Source of the DNA: a virus
DNA length: 51,271 bases
Direction: 5' to 3' (one strand)
IMG/VR virus record: IMGVR_UViG_3300017917_000927
Coordinates: 1 to 51,271 of that record
Of this stretch, positions 10,549 through 37,800 are shown in pieces (within the stretch, counting starts at the first letter, position 1; the number at the start of each line of letters is the position of its first letter). The notes beneath the pieces were generated by a model, which saw only the letters and a list, made by a program, of their open reading frames with translations, did no database searches and had not been told where the DNA came from. A program made the position numbers and the translations under genes.

Positions 10549-10926
10549 TTAGTAATTATAACGAATTTCTGTAATTGTGCCCTGTTCTAGCTGGTAAGCA
10601 GCACGAATGTAGACAAATTTTCCAGTAAAACTACGTGTAGCACTAGCTACAATGGGGGTACTATCTAAAGCGTCTAGGGGAGATGCTAGTAATGTAGCAG
10701 GATCAACTAATGTAATATCGACCCAGTCTAATTCTCCGGGATACAATTCTAAAGTTCCTTGGATTTTAACAGATCCTTTAAAATTGTCAAAGTCAAACAC
10801 TAGCGTATGTGTGCCGTTATTATTCTTTTGATACCCAGCAGCCTTATTTTTATTAGAATATTGCCAAACAGACGGCTGAGAATCGTTGGCTGCATTTGAT
10901 AATAAAACTAGATATTCTGTGGACAT
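10549..10926 (-). CDS. Beta-rich, probably virion-associated protein
   Basis: 125 residues, mostly predicted beta strands (THTLVFDFDNFKGSVKIQGT; GKFVYIRAAYQLEQGTITE). The closing pattern, in which a strand ending in a VYIRAAY-type motif is followed by GTI and a short hydrophobic end, is one I recall in small virion proteins of marine myoviruses. No catalytic motif is seen. The upstream gene ends 3 bases before the start region, and a GATAAATA motif lies 4 bases before the ATG. The structural role is inference. Confidence 0.6.
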   Translation of the reverse strand: MSTEYLVLLSNAANDSQPSVWQYSNKNKAAGYQKNNNGTHTLVFDFDNFKGSVKIQGTLELYPGELDWVDITLVDPATLLASPLDALDSTPIVASATRSFTGKFVYIRAAYQLEQGTITEIRYNY

Positions 10927-10929
10927 CAG

Positions 10930-11610
10930 TTATTTATCGCTAACAATGTAATTATAAATGCGACCTATTACTTCAGAATTTCGCAATTTAAGCATTAACA
11001 GTGTAGATTCGTCTTCTACTAGTATATATCTACGATCCCAGTTCCAGTCAGTGTTTAAAAACCACCTTTGAACCGCTTCTGTGCAAGTTACCTTAGGTTC
11101 CTGACGTCTAACCCAGTCGATATATTTTTGTTTACCTTCTTTATCACCTGCCATTTTGTGCGGTAATAGATATACTCTGTATCTATAACGATTGTGAGGC
11201 AATTTTTTAACAGATACAGCTGAATGTGAATCTGTTAAAAGATTAATAGTTAGTGGGTCTGGTTCAAATCTATGTATTAATGATTCTTTAAATTCTGTTG
11301 ATAAAGACTCATAAAAGTTTTTATCATTGGTATAAAGATCTATAGCATTATTTTCAATACGTTTAGTCCATTCTTTAGCGTCATACTTTTCTAAAAAAGA
11401 GCAAAGATTAAAAATCTGATCTCTATTTTGAAGTGCTTTAGCATACATTGTATATGGACGGTCGTCCGGCTGGGCATTAGTAATATAGTCTTTGATATGA
11501 TCTAGACTTTTATATCGTAGAATGCCGCAGCCAGTTAGACGTAGGCTAACTTTATACAACCATTTATTATAAAATCTTCTACTCGTTAGTTTCGTTTTCT
11601 GTAACATCAT
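10930..11610 (-). CDS. Unknown basic protein downstream of ClpA
   Basis: 226 residues, function not recognised. It is mixed alpha/beta and rich in Tyr, Arg and Lys, with notable segments FYNKWLYKVSLRLTGCGILR near the N-terminus, HNRYRYRVYLLPHKMAGDKE in the middle and EDESTLLMLKLRNSEVIGR near the end. No Cys-pair, Walker or nuclease motif is evident. The start (ATGATG) lies inside the last codons of clpA, so translation is probably coupled to it. The association with ClpA hints at a role in targeted proteolysis or in its regulation, but that is only positional. Confidence 0.6.
   Translation of the reverse strand: MMLQKTKLTSRRFYNKWLYKVSLRLTGCGILRYKSLDHIKDYITNAQPDDRPYTMYAKALQNRDQIFNLCSFLEKYDAKEWTKRIENNAIDLYTNDKNFYESLSTEFKESLIHRFEPDPLTINLLTDSHSAVSVKKLPHNRYRYRVYLLPHKMAGDKEGKQKYIDWVRRQEPKVTCTEAVQRWFLNTDWNWDRRYILVEDESTLLMLKLRNSEVIGRIYNYIVSDK
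10931..10938 (-). promoter_or_regulatory. Late-promoter-like GATAAATA directly before an ATG
   Basis: GATAAATA on the minus strand, 4 bases before the ATG at 10926 and overlapping the upstream TAA stop. No ribosome binding site is visible between it and the ATG. Confidence 0.3.
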
Positions 11611-13939
11611 CTTGTTCTGCTGTTTTAGCAGCCTCCAACGCCCTCTGAGCTTTAATGGCTTTCTTTTCTTCTTTGGTTAAAGGTTTAGGGATTTCGCTGA
11701 CCGTAAATGTTAGATCGTTGTCTACAATCTCAATATTAACACGACCACCGTCAACTAGATCGCCAAACAATACTCGACGACTCAGCGGAGATTTAATCTT
11801 GTTATCAATTAAACGTGCTAGTGGACGAGCACCCATCTTTTTATCGTAACCTTTTTCTGCTAACCATTTAGCGGCAGCGGTAGATAATACAAGTTCAATT
11901 CCTTTGTCTTTTAGTTGAGTATTAAGCTCGCCAACAAACTTCTTAACAATTTGTACAACTGTGTCAGAACTAAGGCCAGCAAACTTAATAATACCATCTA
12001 ATCGATTGCGGAATTCTGGAGCAAAGAATTTCTTAACTGCTTTATCATCTTCACCGTCACGAGCCAATTCACCAAATCCAATAGTATTATTTTCGTTATC
12101 TCTAGCACCTAAGTTACTGGTCATAATTAAAATACAATTACGACCGTCGGCTTGTTTACCATTTGATCCTGTAATAAAACCGTTATCCATAAATGCTAGT
12201 AAAATATTAGTAACATCCGGATGTGCTTTTTCAATCTCATCTAATAATAAAATAGAATTAGGATGTTCCTGTAATTTAGTAATTAATTGACCAGCATTAT
12301 CTTCGTAACCAACATATCCTGGAGGAGCACCAATAAGTCGAGACACAGAATGTTTCTCTTGATATTCACCCATATCAAAGCGAATCATTTGCATACCCAT
12401 TTTATCTGCAAGAACTCTGGCAGTTTCTGTTTTACCAGTACCTGTAGGACCCAAGAACAAGAACGAACCGATAGGTTTGTTAGGATGTTTCATACCTGCT
12501 TGACTTACAAAAATCTTATCAAGTAATGTATCTACAGCCGCATCTTGACCATACACTGCTGCTTTCATCCCACCTTCTAAATCAGCAAGATTTTTACTTT
12601 CTTTTTGTGCAACAGTTTCTAACGGCATATTGATCATTTTGCTAAGTTCGTATGTAACTTGTTCAATGTCAACAATTTGCTCAATGCCTTCCATTCCATC
12701 TTCGTCTTTTAACTTATAACGGGCAGCGGCACAATCTAAAATGTCAATAGCTTTGTCTGGCAATTTTTTATCTGCCATATACTTGATAGATAGTTTAACT
12801 GCCTGTTCGATGGCTGCATCACTGATCTTAACATTGTGATGTTTTTCGTAATACTTCTTAATGCCTTTGAGAATCTTAATAGTCATTTCCTGACTAGGTT
12901 CGTCAATAGTAACACGCTGGAATCGACGCATTAGAGCACGATCACTTTCAAAGTGCTTGCGATATTCTTCCCAGGTAGTAGATGCAATTAATTTAATTAC
13001 ACCCTTGGTAAGGATAGGCTTTAACATATTAGCCATATCATTACTGCTGTTATTAGCAGCACCAGCACCTTGCATCATATGTGCTTCGTCAATGAAAAGA
13101 ATAATCTTTCCTTTCTTTTCAAGTGCAGTAAGAACAGCCTTGACACGTTCTTCGAAGTCACCTCGATACTTACTACCAGCAAGCAACGAACTGATGTCTA
13201 AGGTATAAACCTGATGATCTTGAATAAATTTAGGAACTTTCTTTTCAAAGATCTTTTTAGCAAGTCCTTCTGCAATAGCAGTCTTACCAACACCTGGATC
13301 ACCAACCATTAGTACGTTTGCTTTGTTACGACGAGCAAGCACTAGTTGAATTTTTTCAATTTCATCATCACGACCAATTACTGGATCAATTTTACGTTGT
13401 TTTGCTTTTAATGAAAGGTTGGTACAAAATTGATTCAAAATTCGATCCGCTTGGTTAGAGTTAACAACACGATTTTCTTCTAATTCTTCTTCTTCGTGGA
13501 CAGCAATGTTTTCTTGGAAATACTTAACAAATTTTTCTTTGGTTACTCCGCCTTTGCTTAGAAAGTAAAAACCAAAGCTATTTTTTTCACTGAGTACACT
13601 GGTAATAACATCAGCAACTTCCATACGTTGACGTCCGCTGAATAATACCTGTGTAAAGCAACGATTAAGCACACGCTCTACACTGTTGGTTTTTTTAGGT
13701 TTATAATTTTGAGTACCTTCAATCTTAATGTCATTGAGATTGTTTTTAAGATAATGTTCTAAATTTGTTTTGATAAATTTAGCATCGGCACCAAAACTTT
13801 CTAATAGTGCATATGATTCCTCATCGCACATAATACTATACACAATATGTTCAATTGTGATATATTCGTGATTAAGTTGACGAGCAGTGCTTACAGAATT
13901 TTCAAAAATATTCTGCAAATTTTGGCTTGGTTCGATCAT
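11579..13939 (-). CDS. clpA: ClpA-type AAA+ unfoldase with a ClpP-docking loop
   Basis: 786 residues, slightly longer than the 758 of E. coli ClpA. The N-domain (about 1-150) is followed by two AAA+ modules. D1 has Walker A GDPGVGKT (213-220) and Walker B ILFIDEAH (280-287). D2 has Walker A GPTGTGKT (497-504) and Walker B LLLDEIEK (564-571). Between the D2 Walker B and the arginine-finger region FRNRLD lies IGF (620-622), placed like the IGL/IGF loop with which ClpA and ClpX dock on ClpP. The protein should therefore unfold substrates for host ClpP. The C-terminal 35 residues are a charged tail. It is coupled to peptide deformylase by a TAATG overlap. Confidence 0.95.
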   Translation of the reverse strand: MIEPSQNLQNIFENSVSTARQLNHEYITIEHIVYSIMCDEESYALLESFGADAKFIKTNLEHYLKNNLNDIKIEGTQNYKPKKTNSVERVLNRCFTQVLFSGRQRMEVADVITSVLSEKNSFGFYFLSKGGVTKEKFVKYFQENIAVHEEEELEENRVVNSNQADRILNQFCTNLSLKAKQRKIDPVIGRDDEIEKIQLVLARRNKANVLMVGDPGVGKTAIAEGLAKKIFEKKVPKFIQDHQVYTLDISSLLAGSKYRGDFEERVKAVLTALEKKGKIILFIDEAHMMQGAGAANNSSNDMANMLKPILTKGVIKLIASTTWEEYRKHFESDRALMRRFQRVTIDEPSQEMTIKILKGIKKYYEKHHNVKISDAAIEQAVKLSIKYMADKKLPDKAIDILDCAAARYKLKDEDGMEGIEQIVDIEQVTYELSKMINMPLETVAQKESKNLADLEGGMKAAVYGQDAAVDTLLDKIFVSQAGMKHPNKPIGSFLFLGPTGTGKTETARVLADKMGMQMIRFDMGEYQEKHSVSRLIGAPPGYVGYEDNAGQLITKLQEHPNSILLLDEIEKAHPDVTNILLAFMDNGFITGSNGKQADGRNCILIMTSNLGARDNENNTIGFGELARDGEDDKAVKKFFAPEFRNRLDGIIKFAGLSSDTVVQIVKKFVGELNTQLKDKGIELVLSTAAAKWLAEKGYDKKMGARPLARLIDNKIKSPLSRRVLFGDLVDGGRVNIEIVDNDLTFTVSEIPKPLTKEEKKAIKAQRALEAAKTAEQDDVTENETNE

Positions 13940-14433
13940 TATTTTACTTTCCTAATTTTCTTCATAGCTAAGTTTAACTTCATCTGTGATACTTTGTCAA
14001 CAAAACAAATGCCATCTAAGTGATCTAACTCGTGTTGAAAACATTTTGCTAGATACCCATCTATTTTAATTTCGTTGATATTACCTTTGCTATCTTGATA
14101 TTCAGCCACAACCCAGGTTGGCCTTTTAACCATTAAGAATAAATCTGGGTAACTTAGACACCCTTCTTTATCCAAAACCATTTCGTCGCTTGCTTGAATA
14201 ATTCTAGGATTAAACAATGCAAATGGTGCAGGAAATCCTGGAATGATGTTACTGCCCATAACAAAAACTCTTTTTGCTAAACCAACCTGATTGGCAGCAA
14301 GTCCAATACCATTATTAGCTAACATAAAATCAATTAATTCTTTTTCAAGAACTTCAGCGTCTTGATCCTGATCAAAATTCCAAGGATCGCTTTTTTGAAC
14401 AAGAGTTTGATGTGGTCCTAATTTAAAGTTCAT
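13939..14433 (-). CDS. def: Peptide deformylase
   Basis: 164 residues. It removes the N-formyl group from new proteins using a bound metal. All three family motifs are present: GIGLAANQ (42-49), EGCLSYP (90-96) with the metal-binding Cys, and HELDHLDG (134-141) with the two metal His and the catalytic Glu. It is close to bacterial length, with a short C-terminus (KKIRKVK). Phage deformylases are known from cyanophages, where they may favour rapid processing of host or phage proteins. It overlaps the DnaJ gene by 11 bases and the ClpA gene by the TAATG arrangement, so the three form one operon. Confidence 0.95.
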   Translation of the reverse strand: MNFKLGPHQTLVQKSDPWNFDQDQDAEVLEKELIDFMLANNGIGLAANQVGLAKRVFVMGSNIIPGFPAPFALFNPRIIQASDEMVLDKEGCLSYPDLFLMVKRPTWVVAEYQDSKGNINEIKIDGYLAKCFQHELDHLDGICFVDKVSQMKLNLAMKKIRKVK

Positions 14434-15253
14434 CTTTTAGTTTTCTTATTTTTTCAAGTTGATTGTTATTAAGATTTTTTGGTATTGCTACTTTAATTCT
14501 AATTAAAAGATTACCCCGTTGTCTGGTTCTCATATGTGGAAGTCCTTCGCCTTTACAACTTAGAATTGTCTCGGACTGTGTTCCTGATGGAACTGTGATA
14601 CTTAATGTTTTATTGTCTAAAGTTTTGATATTCATTGTAGAACCTAACATTGCGTCCCACACACTGATTTCTTTATCAAAGACCAACGAGGTGCCTTCTC
14701 TTTTAAACAGTGGATGTGGTCGAATAACAACATTAACTAATAAATCGCCGGGGCGTAAATCTGGAATAGAGTGATCACCCATTCCTTCGTACCTAATTTG
14801 TTGACCATTATCAATTCCCGGTGGAATATGAATGTTGATCATTTTATTTTTACCGCCTGGTACATTTAATTCAGCACTGACATCCTTACCAGTTAGTACT
14901 TCTTCTAAGGTAATCTCTACGTTGATATTAAGACTTTTATTTCTGCGTTGAGGACGCTGATTAAATCCAAACCCAAAATTACCAAAAATGTCGTGTAAAT
15001 TTTCTGTACCAAAGTGGAATTCAAACGGTCCTTGATTAAATCCACCGCCTTGTTGATTAGGATCCATTCCAGCATCGATCATTCTGCGTTTTTCTGGATT
15101 GCTTAAAAATTCATAGGCCTGATTAACTTCTTTAAATTTCTTTTCATCACCACCGCGATCAGGGTGATGTTTCATCGCCATACTGCGATAAGCCTTTTTA
15201 ATATCGGCGTCAGATGCACCTCGTTTTAATCCTAGTGTAGCGTAATAATCCAT
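14423..15253 (-). CDS. dnaJ: DnaJ/CbpA-like co-chaperone
   Basis: 276 residues. The J-domain is at the N-terminus with HPD (30-32), followed by a Gly/Phe-rich linker (about 66-100) and two C-terminal substrate-binding beta domains (about 105-270). The Cys4 zinc-finger region is absent, so it is CbpA-like. It should stimulate host DnaK through HPD. It is the first gene of the dnaJ-def-clpA operon, read from a sigma70-type promoter whose -10 box ends 6 bases before the ATG, so the message is probably leaderless. J-domain proteins are uncommon in phages, though reported in some marine ones. Confidence 0.93.
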   Translation of the reverse strand: MDYYATLGLKRGASDADIKKAYRSMAMKHHPDRGGDEKKFKEVNQAYEFLSNPEKRRMIDAGMDPNQQGGGFNQGPFEFHFGTENLHDIFGNFGFGFNQRPQRRNKSLNINVEITLEEVLTGKDVSAELNVPGGKNKMINIHIPPGIDNGQQIRYEGMGDHSIPDLRPGDLLVNVVIRPHPLFKREGTSLVFDKEISVWDAMLGSTMNIKTLDNKTLSITVPSGTQSETILSCKGEGLPHMRTRQRGNLLIRIKVAIPKNLNNNQLEKIRKLKDEL

Positions 15254-15259
15254 AGTTAT

Positions 15260-15288
15260 ATTATATGATAAAAAAAGGACTACGTCAA
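15260..15288 (-). promoter_or_regulatory. Sigma70-type promoter of the dnaJ-def-clpA operon, inside a terminator
   Basis: On the minus strand: -35 TTGACG (15288-15283), 17-base spacer, -10 TATAAT (15265-15260). The -35 box lies in the loop and the base of the 3' arm of the terminator hairpin at 15273-15299. The expected +1 falls on or next to the A of the dnaJ ATG (15253). Confidence 0.75.
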
Positions 15289-15299
15289 GCAGTCCTTTT
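15273..15299 (-). terminator. Rho-independent terminator after the lysis cassette
   Basis: A 9-bp perfect stem (15273-15281 with 15291-15299), a 9-base loop and T tracts on both strands. It lies about 28 bases after the stop of the exported-peptide gene and ends the lysis transcription unit. Confidence 0.85.
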
Positions 15300-33328: not shown

Positions 33329-34840
33329 TTATACTAATGCTGCTATTCTTGTTTGGAAGTCACTAAAACTAGTACTTGCCGCTACTAGTGATTTAAAATC
33401 ATTAAGAAGAATTAATTTACTTCCTCGAACTAGTAATTGATTATTAACTGTTAAATCGTTTTCTACAACTACATCTGATTCAAATTTCATTAACGGTGTA
33501 ACTACAATCTGTGATGAATCTGCACTATCGATTAAGTTAGTAAACACGTTACCTGTAATTGTACCAACAAAATTGTCAGTAGTTAATGTATTTGTGTTAG
33601 GATTATATGTTAAAGATGTATCAGTTCTTACATTTTCGTTTCCTGTAGTTGCATCAACAAACGTAACATAGTGTGTGGCTGCTGTAGTATTTGTTGCTAC
33701 TAACGTGACAGTTGTGGCTATTCCTGCAGTTCCAGAAATGTCTCCTGTTACATTACCAACAACTAAACCTGTAAATGTTCCCTGCACTACTTCCGCTGGA
33801 ATTCTGCCACCCGGTCCATCGACTAACAAAGTTGAGTTATCTGCAAACACAGATCCAACAATGTCAATTCTATTGTTTACCGCAATAGTTAATGTGTCGT
33901 TTACTGGATTGTTTGTTAAGGTAATTCCGTAACCTTGACTAAAATTAAATGTATCTGATATGGAATCTGCTACAACATCGTTGGCAGATAAATCGCCATC
34001 AATGTGAAACGTTGTGAATGCCGCAGACGGAGCTGTTGTTGGGTTAAAAGAAACCTGAGAAATTCCTGTAGCAGTATCTGTTGATACCGAAATACCAAAT
34101 CCTGCCTGAACTCCTAAAATACCTGTGTTAGTAATTTTAATGCCATCACCGGTTGAATTATCAATATTGATACCATCGCCGATAGTTCTGCCACTTGGCA
34201 ATGCAGTAGTACTAGTTAAACTTCTAACACCGGTGTTAGTAACAGTTATATTGCCAGTTGCAGAACTAACACTTACTCCTAGTCCAGCAACTAACCCTGT
34301 AACACCTGTGTTGTTAAATGTAATGCTTTCGCCAGCAGAATCAACTACTAACTGCATTGCAGTACCTGAATTTAAATTCAATGTATCAGCAAAATCATTA
34401 GCAACTACTGATTCTGAATTGTCAACCTGCGCTGTTTTAAAAAATGTTTTGTCTGGATCAATAATTAAACTAACACCGATGCCCGTTGCCGGGTCTCCGC
34501 CTATTGTTGAATTTGCTGGAAGATTAACTGTTAAGCCTACACCTTTAATTTGTGCAGAGCCTGCCCAAAGACCGTTTAATTCTGATCCTGCAATGTTGCT
34601 CCACTCGCTGGTATAAACGCTTTTCCATCTATAAGTTGAACTACCTAATTGATATGTATTTGAAGTTGCTGGACTAACATTAGTGTTTAATGTTTCAAAG
34701 TCGATAGGAGTTAATCCTGAACCCGTTCCAACTGTAGCTACTAAAATATCAAAGTTTTCGTTGACCTTAGTAAATGCATCGTGCACCTCACTCCACAGTA
34801 ATGGAGGACGTCCCGGTGTTATATTTGTATTGAATGCCAT
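33329..34840 (-). CDS. Tail-fibre protein with variant docking module
   Basis: 503 residues. The N-terminus FNTNITPGRPPLLWSEVHDAF then TKVNENFDILVATVG is a variant of the shared module. The body is made of fibre-type repeats (VGLGVSVSSATGNITVTNTG and similar; SSTALPSGRTIGDGI). GSVFADNSTLLVDG-x-GGRIP is shared with the 1146-residue protein. The C-terminal end (QLLVRGSKLILLNDFKSLVA, SFSDFQTRIAALV) is helical and probably ends in a short coiled coil. It overlaps the 2254-residue gene by a TAATG arrangement. A structural fibre role is well supported by composition. Confidence 0.75.
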   Translation of the reverse strand: MAFNTNITPGRPPLLWSEVHDAFTKVNENFDILVATVGTGSGLTPIDFETLNTNVSPATSNTYQLGSSTYRWKSVYTSEWSNIAGSELNGLWAGSAQIKGVGLTVNLPANSTIGGDPATGIGVSLIIDPDKTFFKTAQVDNSESVVANDFADTLNLNSGTAMQLVVDSAGESITFNNTGVTGLVAGLGVSVSSATGNITVTNTGVRSLTSTTALPSGRTIGDGINIDNSTGDGIKITNTGILGVQAGFGISVSTDTATGISQVSFNPTTAPSAAFTTFHIDGDLSANDVVADSISDTFNFSQGYGITLTNNPVNDTLTIAVNNRIDIVGSVFADNSTLLVDGPGGRIPAEVVQGTFTGLVVGNVTGDISGTAGIATTVTLVATNTTAATHYVTFVDATTGNENVRTDTSLTYNPNTNTLTTDNFVGTITGNVFTNLIDSADSSQIVVTPLMKFESDVVVENDLTVNNQLLVRGSKLILLNDFKSLVAASTSFSDFQTRIAALV

Positions 34841-37800
34841 TATGTTCTCCCTACTGCAATTTCAATTGTACCAATGTGATCACTGTCATAATCTTGTAGT
34901 GCTTTACCAACCACAGTTCCAACCTTAACGTCGTCGCCGCCGGCAATTGCAACCCCTGGGGTTCTTGCTGTCACTAACATATCTCCTTTGCGTATCTTAC
35001 CAACTACGCGACACGGAACACGACCTTGTAGCGCAACTAGATTTTTAAATCCAGGACAAGCATCGTACATTACAAATGCTGCTGTGTTTGAAACAACACC
35101 AGCAACTCGTTTGTCGCCTTGCTGATTAGTTACAGTTACTTCTTTATCCCCACCAAACACTAGCACTGTACCTACTGGGTAATCTTTGTCACCCTCGTAG
35201 TATTCAGCTAAGTCAGCGGAATAAGTTGCTTGTAATCTTGATTCGTTTGGACTAGTTCCAGTCAATGTCCAACGACCTGTAATAGTACCAGCAGTAGTAT
35301 TACCGCCTGTGGTAATTGCAGTTACCTGGATACTTGATGCTGTAATTGGTGCAGCACTTAGACCGTTCTGTGTTCTAAAACTATGTGCATCGTTATCATA
35401 GTAAGTTACTTTGTCAGCAGCTAAAGAACCACTACTTACTAACACACCGCCTGCTGAACCGAAGCCGTATAGTCTAATAAATCCACCAGTAGCAGTTGTA
35501 GAACTATCTAATGTTAGATTATTATCAATTTTAATTTGACTTAGATCTGCAACTCTAGCACCAAAGTCACCGTTGCTGTCACGAATAATTAATTTGCTTA
35601 CTTCTGGAGCAGCCGCAGTTCCTGCTGCCGCTTCAATCATAGTGTAGTCCGCATCTGAAGTATTACTTCCTGATGATGTTCTACGTAAGAATCCAGTTGA
35701 GCTATATTGTGATTTTTTAATACCTAGACCGTCGTTAACCACAGTGCTAAAGTCAACTTGCGCAACGTTGGCAGTTCCAAGAGTAGCGTTACCAAGAACT
35801 TTCTTAGTACCAATCTGTTCAAGTTCAGCAAGTGTAGTTCCGTTGTCTTTGAGTGTTACCCAACCATCTGTTACTGTGAATATTGCCGAGTCAAAACTTG
35901 ACAATCCTCTATCAGCTTGTGTAATTCCAGCAGCGTTTGCTCTGGTAGTAGCAGCGTTCATTGCTAGTTTACTTTGAACAATTGCAGCATCTGATTTAAT
36001 GTCAGCATTAATAATTGTGTCAGGATTAATTTGAACATCAATTTGATTTAACGCACTATCAACACCAGTGGTTAAATTAAATGTAACATCACCAATTACA
36101 GTAGCATTAACGGAACTGTTTCCTACGCCAGTAAACACTAATAAATCGCTGGCGTCAACATTATTGCCGCTGAAGTTTTGGAAATTATTCCAGGTTAAAC
36201 TTCTTAAATTAACAGCATCTTGTGGATTAGTTGCATCTGTAAGATTGATAATTTTATTATTATCAAGGTTCATACTAGCTTTCATAGCCAGTTGTCCATC
36301 AAGGGACATATAACCACCACTTACTGTTGGAATTAATTGTGATGATGTTACAGGAGCACCGTCGTGTGTTAATCCTAATCTACGTTCAATATAGATACGT
36401 GTAGCGTTTTCTGTTGGAACAGTATCTGTAGCATTGTCTGTAAATGCAGAGTCTGTTGAGAATTCACTAACTGGAACACCACGTTTGAAACCAATACCGT
36501 CTAGGTTACTCAAAGCAATTGAGCTTGAGAATGTTACAGTACCAGTACCTTGGTCGACCTTAAAGTAAGGACCAACTTTAAAGTTACCATATTGGTCAGT
36601 GGTCACATAGAACACACGACCTACATCGCGTTCGTCAGTTTCGGTGTCTTCGTTAAGAGCATTAACTGATTGACCGTAAATTTCTTTTGGATAGTTTGTA
36701 TCAGCGTATGATCCAGTACCAATTTCTAATAAATCGTGTGATGTAACACGAGTCAACGAAATACGAATTGTTAAGCTACCTGTAGCTCCGTTTGATCTAA
36801 TAGGTACCGCAGATTTAACTGTGTATGATGAACCATAGGCAATCACACTATCGACTAACGGACGACTAAGATTTACTCGAGCATACGGTTCGTTGGTTAC
36901 AGTCTCAGGCTCATAATCAGTAATTATATACTCTTCGCCTTTGAACATAAACTTAGAACCATCAACTCGAGAAATCTCCAACGAGCCAACTGGTACAACT
37001 GCAAATGATGAATCTCCTGCACGTCCAGTTACCTTACCAACTTTAACTGTGCCTACAGTTGTTCCAGAAGTGTCAACAGCAGTACCTCCAGGAGTTAAAC
37101 TGATTCTAAATACATTGGCACCGAGTCCGGTTGATAGAACGTGATAGTTATAAAGTGTACTCATTCCAGTTGGAAGACTTCCGCCAGATGACACTGTAAA
37201 TTTAATAACATCTCCAGCATTAAATCCGTGAGTGTTTAAATTAATTTCAGTTGGTGCACCAACTGTAATTGTACAGGTAGTACCAGTAGGAGTAGTACTA
37301 ATAAACTCACCAGGTTGCCATAATGTCAAATCAACGTAATTATAGTTTTCTCGAAGATTAGTTTTTGTTAAACCTTCCAACGCATAAGTGTGTATTCCAG
37401 ACCCAGCAGTTGTAGTATTAATTACATTACCTGATCTAGTAGCCGATATACTAAAATCAGTGTTAGTTAACCCATCAGATATAACATAATAGGTAGTGCC
37501 AGATACTAATGGACTAGGTAATGCTCCTGATGTTAGAAAACTAACAGTGTAATTTTCTAAAAGTTTGTGAGTTTTCTTACCTTTAATAGATAATCCAGTT
37601 CCGTTAACTAGTGCGTGTACTGAACCTCCGGGTGAAGTTGAAACAGTAAACTGATTGTATTCTGGAACACTAATAACATAATAAGGAGTTCCTTGACCAA
37701 AACCATTAGCAGTAGATGTTGGAATAAATTGATCGCCAACTCTTAATTTATGATTCTGAGATGTAGTACAGACATTAGTATCAATTGTAGTAACAGTTGC

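Follow-up and report, generated by a model that had tools for sequence, protein, structure and literature searches.

The DNA analysed here (hereafter the window) is a virus record of 51,271 bases, a fragment of a giant aquatic phage that covers ~14%, or about one seventh, of an estimated genome of 350-365 kb; no tRNA genes were found within the 51,271 bases. Four minus-strand ORFs, dnaJ, def, clpA and orf226, overlap one another by 11, 1 and 32 nt respectively, and stand between a predicted regulatory element and a gene for a protein of 125 residues:

15260-15299, minus strand: predicted fused terminator/promoter before dnaJ (hairpin, -35, -10)
14423-15253, minus strand: dnaJ (Pfam DnaJ, 3.3e-22; DnaJ_C, 1.5e-41; J-domain with HPD)
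13939-14433, minus strand: def, peptide deformylase (PF01327, 1.6e-41)
11579-13939, minus strand: clpA, two-module AAA+ unfoldase of the ClpA type (TIGR02639, phrog_4871, E. coli ClpA)
13280-13303, minus strand: Walker A of ClpA module D1, residues 213-220 (motif reading)
12428-12451, minus strand: Walker A of ClpA module D2, residues 497-504 (motif reading)
12074-12082, minus strand: codons of the ClpP-docking motif IGF, residues 620-622 (alignment with E. coli ClpA)
10930-11610, minus strand: orf226, a virus-only protein of 226 residues, overlapping the 3' end of clpA
10549-10926, minus strand: 125-aa gene, next after orf226, predicted beta-rich fold

A sequence-only reading of this DNA had proposed a dnaJ/def/clpA operon, with DnaJ and deformylase made from the clpA message; the arrangement of the three ORFs bears this out, in that they overlap on one strand and look co-transcribed. 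The relatives referred to below are G027 (364 kb; ClpA 69% identical to that of the window), G052 (a 353-kb contig; 82%), G019 (an incomplete contig; 80%) and G005 (83%, about as close as G052). For three large contigs of the clade, read piecewise, the comparison was made gene by gene. The window is colinear with ~168-222 kb of G027, where nearly all of the reciprocal best hits found for 47 of its 60 ORFs are located, and G027 holds the whole dnaJ-def-clpA-orf226 operon. Since the two contig ends of G027 map side by side in G005, G027 is close to complete.

The clpA product has the Pfam domains Clp_N, AAA, AAA_lid_9, AAA_2 and ClpB_D2-small, in this order, corresponding to the N-domain, D1, D2 and D2-small, and its residues 11-746 align with E. 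coli ClpA (1ksf, 1e-198). Walker B motifs (ILFIDE at 280, ILLLDE at 563) accompany the Walker A motifs at 213 and 497, so that both modules carry the intact pairs described previously, and the IGF also described at 620-622 lies, in the alignment, opposite the ClpP-docking IGL of E. coli ClpA. The best model for the protein is TIGR02639, ClpA (9.3e-268; the ClpB and ClpV models score 672 and 572 bits), but its 890 bits fall under the equivalog cut-off of 993, and we therefore name it a viral ClpA-type protein; it belongs to phage family phrog_4871 (833 bits). The docking motif IGx is not found in ClpB or ClpV. In our searches it was present after the D2 Walker B of the window ClpA and absent from T6SS ClpV-like controls, and a genome scan found (I/V)GF at the docking position of five bacterial ClpAs. 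Within the clade, IGF is unchanged in 63 of 63 distinct ClpAs, while loop positions 613, 617, 624 and 626 vary. Among isolated jumbo phages, the loop reads IGF in Atu_ph07, Phosso and PA5oct, and IGV, IGM, LGM, IGG or, in the RaK2 group, MNM in others. ClpA occurs together with a ClpP-family protease in 17 of 18 large isolate genomes (Atu_ph07, Phosso, PA5oct, SCTP-2, RaK2, 121Q and others); the only one without a ClpP hit, LR756501, has lost IGF, its loop having changed to QGM, which suggests that the docking loop and ClpP tend to go together. These comparisons support the view that the protein is an intact unfoldase of the ClpA type and that its docking motif is under constraint.

As to the other two enzymes, CxxCxGxG zinc-finger repeats occur in none of 63 clade DnaJ sequences, and the dnaJ product is thus a class-B rather than a class-A J-protein. 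The deformylase motifs G.GLAA.Q, EGC and HExxH are intact in the window, and all three are found in 39 of 39 clade sequences; def itself was present at 48 of 75 loci in the clade survey and is an optional member of the operon. Deformylases are already known from phages (PMC7162821).

Upstream of dnaJ lies a hairpin, AAAAGGACTGC-TTGAC-GTAGTCCTTTT, followed by a T-run, and the loop of this hairpin is at the same time a -35 box. The -35 hexamer (TTGACG, 15288-15283) is separated by a 17-nt spacer from a -10 hexamer (TATAAT, 15265-15260), after which come 6 nt and the dnaJ ATG. The hairpin is kept in all 47 distinct clade upstream regions, and 38 of these have both a good -10 and the TTGAC loop, at a distance of exactly 17 nt in 37; across relatives the stems change on both sides, i.e., they covary, while the TTGAC loop stays. 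We predict that the element is a terminator whose loop serves as the -35 box of a σ70 promoter. With the usual promoter spacing, transcription of dnaJ would begin at the ATG or close to it. RNA polymerase has been documented to reinitiate following intrinsic termination (PMC6978380), so that the hairpin could hand polymerase arriving from the upstream genes on to the operon. In a scan of the whole genome the fused element did not emerge as general in the phage, and the literature searched (terminator/promoter fusion, phage ClpP) offered no direct precedent, which is weak evidence of novelty.

A profile search with PF00574 found no ClpP in the window. The earlier statement that clpP is absent thus stands for these 51 kb, but it does not extend to the genome. 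The search of the full genome that had been suggested could be made in near-complete relatives, and it recovered clpP in G027 and G052, both of which have a gene for a canonical ClpP at a distance of 150-215 kb from clpA, and also in G019, at the contig edge. In G027 the gene is at 330 kb, ~108 kb past the segment matching the window. The apparent lack of a protease partner only reflects how little of the genome, about one seventh, the window covers. The slot occupied by clpP, also in G052, is flanked by genes for an aminotransferase and an HNH protein and lies ~210-215 kb downstream of clpA. We surveyed 80 viral contigs of the wider clade with the HNH gene; five could not be scored, and among the remaining 75 the slot contains clpP in 72 and lacks it in three. 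The three empty slots, L260 (G005), L261 and L262, are candidate cases in which host ClpP is truly used; that of G005 is occupied by sugar-nucleotide-like genes instead. All three are confined to one shallow clade, and because this small clade also has a clpP-positive row the absence looks like a recent loss. In a ClpA tree the window weakly joins the branch holding G005, and not G052 or G019, but it falls outside the G005 subclade itself, the ClpAs of which are near-identical to one another. The window does not appear to belong to the shallow clade without clpP and, judged from these comparisons, its phage very probably has clpP.

The slot ClpPs are on average 64.5% identical to that of E. 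coli, and the triad S97/H122/D171 is present in 31 of 31 distinct clade sequences. The G027 protein scores 324.5 with the ClpP subfamily model NF001368, above the cut-off of 249, and 105.8 with the head-maturation model, below the cut-off of 120; its best matches are E. coli-like solved ClpPs. Together with their axial N-terminus, this identifies the slot proteins of the relatives as ClpP rather than head-maturation protease. The character of the pocket is conserved, and relative to E. coli the changes Y62F and I90Y/F are fixed, at residues 62 and 90, which we take to be pocket positions. A second ClpP-family gene (~191 aa; G027 264805-265317, also G016 and L082) was considered as the ClpA partner and set aside, its product sharing just 25-27% identity with the slot ClpP.

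A PF02617 search found no ClpS in the window. ClpS is present in G027, G052, G005 and others, where it adjoins full-length DnaK:

G027, 288508-291263: dnaK - Hsp20-like - clpS
G005, 11669-14424: dnaK - Hsp20-like - clpS
G052, 34565-37286: full-length DnaK, ClpS

The gene between dnaK and clpS in G027 and G005 matches IbpA-like Hsp20, and in both, clpS is followed by the gene of a helical protein that by eye resembles heme oxygenase. In the incomplete contig G019 neither ClpS nor DnaK was above cut-off, and a search for GrpE found no phage copy.

Taken together, the operon is best explained as part of a self-contained phage ClpSAP and DnaK/J set of a ~350-365 kb aquatic jumbo phage, a reading to which we assign a probability of about 0.8. 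Genes, motifs, positions and conservation are read directly from the sequences; that this phage has clpP, clpS and dnaK as its relatives do, and that its ClpA assembles with the phage ClpP, we infer from them. The phage ClpA would unfold substrates and feed them, via its IGF loops, into the phage-encoded ClpP specified ~210 kb away, and the phage ClpS could hand it N-degron substrates. The J-protein would partner the phage DnaK, the product of the dnaK - Hsp20-like - clpS operon, probably with host GrpE, and the two may keep proteins foldable or pass them on; the deformylase would be an optional passenger for translation. Host proteins, defence proteins, early phage proteins that are spent, and aggregates may be among the targets of degradation. 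Four points count against this explanation: the window genome is incomplete, and its own clpP, clpS and dnaK are therefore not seen; G005, with a ClpA about as close as that of G052, lacks clpP in the slot; the ClpA of the window groups, if weakly, with the G005 branch; and the ClpP pocket differs from that of E. coli at residues 62 and 90.

The remaining gene of the overlapping set, orf226, had been proposed to be translationally coupled to clpA and perhaps to encode an adaptor. Coupling is plausible, as an overlap of 8-65 nt between the two genes occurs at 80 of 80 loci, but no Shine-Dalgarno sequence with good spacing precedes the orf226 ATG. The protein can be aligned over 60 sequences and its predicted model is confident (pLDDT 92). 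Searches with Pfam, phrog and TIGR-type profiles gave no family match, an INPHARED search gave no relatives and a PDB search gave no structural relatives and no ClpS-like fold; in BFVD the model has 8 relatives at E<=1e-3, all from tailed phages and including a weak one in Atu_ph07. The reverse transcriptases among the PDB fold hits, with TM under 0.3 and E over 0.01, were rejected as relatives, and comparing profiles of the two halves of the protein gave no support for an internal duplication. That orf226 is a dedicated adaptor or regulator of ClpA is a tentative suggestion, which we consider doubtful. The invariable overlap is consistent with it, as are similar-sized ORFs at this position in several relatives whose ClpA is 46-60% identical (HMM E 9e-24 to a marginal 0.02). 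However, the neighbouring dnaJ and 125-aa gene keep the same order as well, no orf226 adjoins the clpA of Phosso, Atu_ph07 or PA5oct, and the fold searches brought up nothing that resembles ClpS or another PDB protein. Moreover, the relatives already encode ClpS, the standard ClpA adaptor, so that orf226 is not needed in this role, though it may still have it.

ClpA and DnaJ might alternatively act mainly as virion-assembly chaperones or as a disaggregase, with no proteolysis. The operon continues into the 125-aa gene, which has a homologue in phage PA5oct with the annotation of a structural protein detected by MS, several jumbo phages have clpA beside genes for tail or other structural proteins, and virion assembly is among the uses suggested for such proteins (PMC7824862, PMC6102473). 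Without proteolysis, however, nothing would keep the docking motif from drifting, but it does not vary within the clade, and the relatives retain both clpP and clpS; we regard this alternative as unlikely. (Eph receptor and CBM beta-sandwiches were rejected as relatives of the 125-aa protein, the best PDB E value being 0.006.) A bolder version of the ClpSAP reading, in which a private phage system is orthogonal to that of the host through the shifted ClpP pocket, orf226 is a virus-only ClpA partner and the fused terminator/promoter starts a leaderless chaperone message, is distinctly unlikely as a whole. Lastly, the sequence-only reading had the phage without a ClpP of its own and its ClpA docking on host ClpP, redirecting it to chosen substrates; IGF is indeed a general bacterial docking motif, and the G005 lineage, with ClpS and an IGF-bearing ClpA but an empty clpP slot, indicates that this situation may exist in nature, in a minority, but for the phage of the window it is very unlikely, given the clpP found in nearly all scorable slots and in relatives with 69%, 80% and 82% identical ClpA, and the position of the window outside the G005 subclade.

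The self-contained set that we favour has counterparts among known phages. Agrobacterium phage Atu_ph07 (490 kb) was reported with ClpA, ClpP, ClpS, ClpB, ClpX and DnaJ (PMC6102473), and a review of jumbo phages lists ClpA, ClpX, ClpP, ClpS and DnaJ, with suggested roles from host takeover to assembly (PMC7824862). In Atu_ph07 dnaJ likewise adjoins clpA and ClpP, ClpS, ClpB and ClpX are encoded, but its ClpA is 39% identical, no def lies between the two genes, no orf226 follows clpA and no DnaK was found. Sinorhizobium phage Phosso (469 kb) shares the order dnaJ-def-clpA, with clpP and clpS elsewhere; its ClpA is 43% identical, and it too differs in having no orf226 after clpA and no DnaK that we could find. 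The aquatic Moraphages (up to 307 kb) carry ClpA, which is conserved, DnaJ, which is frequent, and, in some, DnaK and HSP20 (PMC12619734), but their reported hosts are mostly Bacteroidota and their DnaK is of the Flavobacteriales type, whereas the clade of the window has genomes of ~350-365 kb and a ClpP that is nearest to proteobacterial ones. The bacterial ClpAP/ClpS and DnaK/DnaJ systems agree in domains, motifs, docking tripeptide and ClpP catalytic triad; the nearest ClpAs in the cellular collection, however, are ~42-44% identical to the viral branch, two phage-like MAG contigs excepted. Besides dnaJ and the 125-aa gene, L347 (335 kb, binned as Neomarinimicrobiota) and L348 (40 kb, binned as Pacearchaeota) have a clpA that is 53-57% identical, and both are probably misbinned jumbo-phage DNA. 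The INPHARED entry 'Acinetobacter phage MD-2021a' (L173, CAKLQF020000008.1) was not accepted as a phage, since its clpS-clpA lies amid argC, ilvA and rpiA, as in a bacterial chromosome.

The operon is thus a further case of the chaperone and Clp sets already known from jumbo phages. What the analysis corrects is a claim made from absence: a fragment cannot prove that a phage lacks ClpP, and the near-complete relatives show the opposite. It also yields a virus-only neighbour of ClpA that can be tested and a compact predicted terminator/promoter with its -35 box as the loop. Above all, it points to a widespread clade of uncultured jumbo phages with ClpA, ClpP, ClpS, DnaJ, DnaK and an Hsp20-like protein, in which the virus would bring its own protein quality control.
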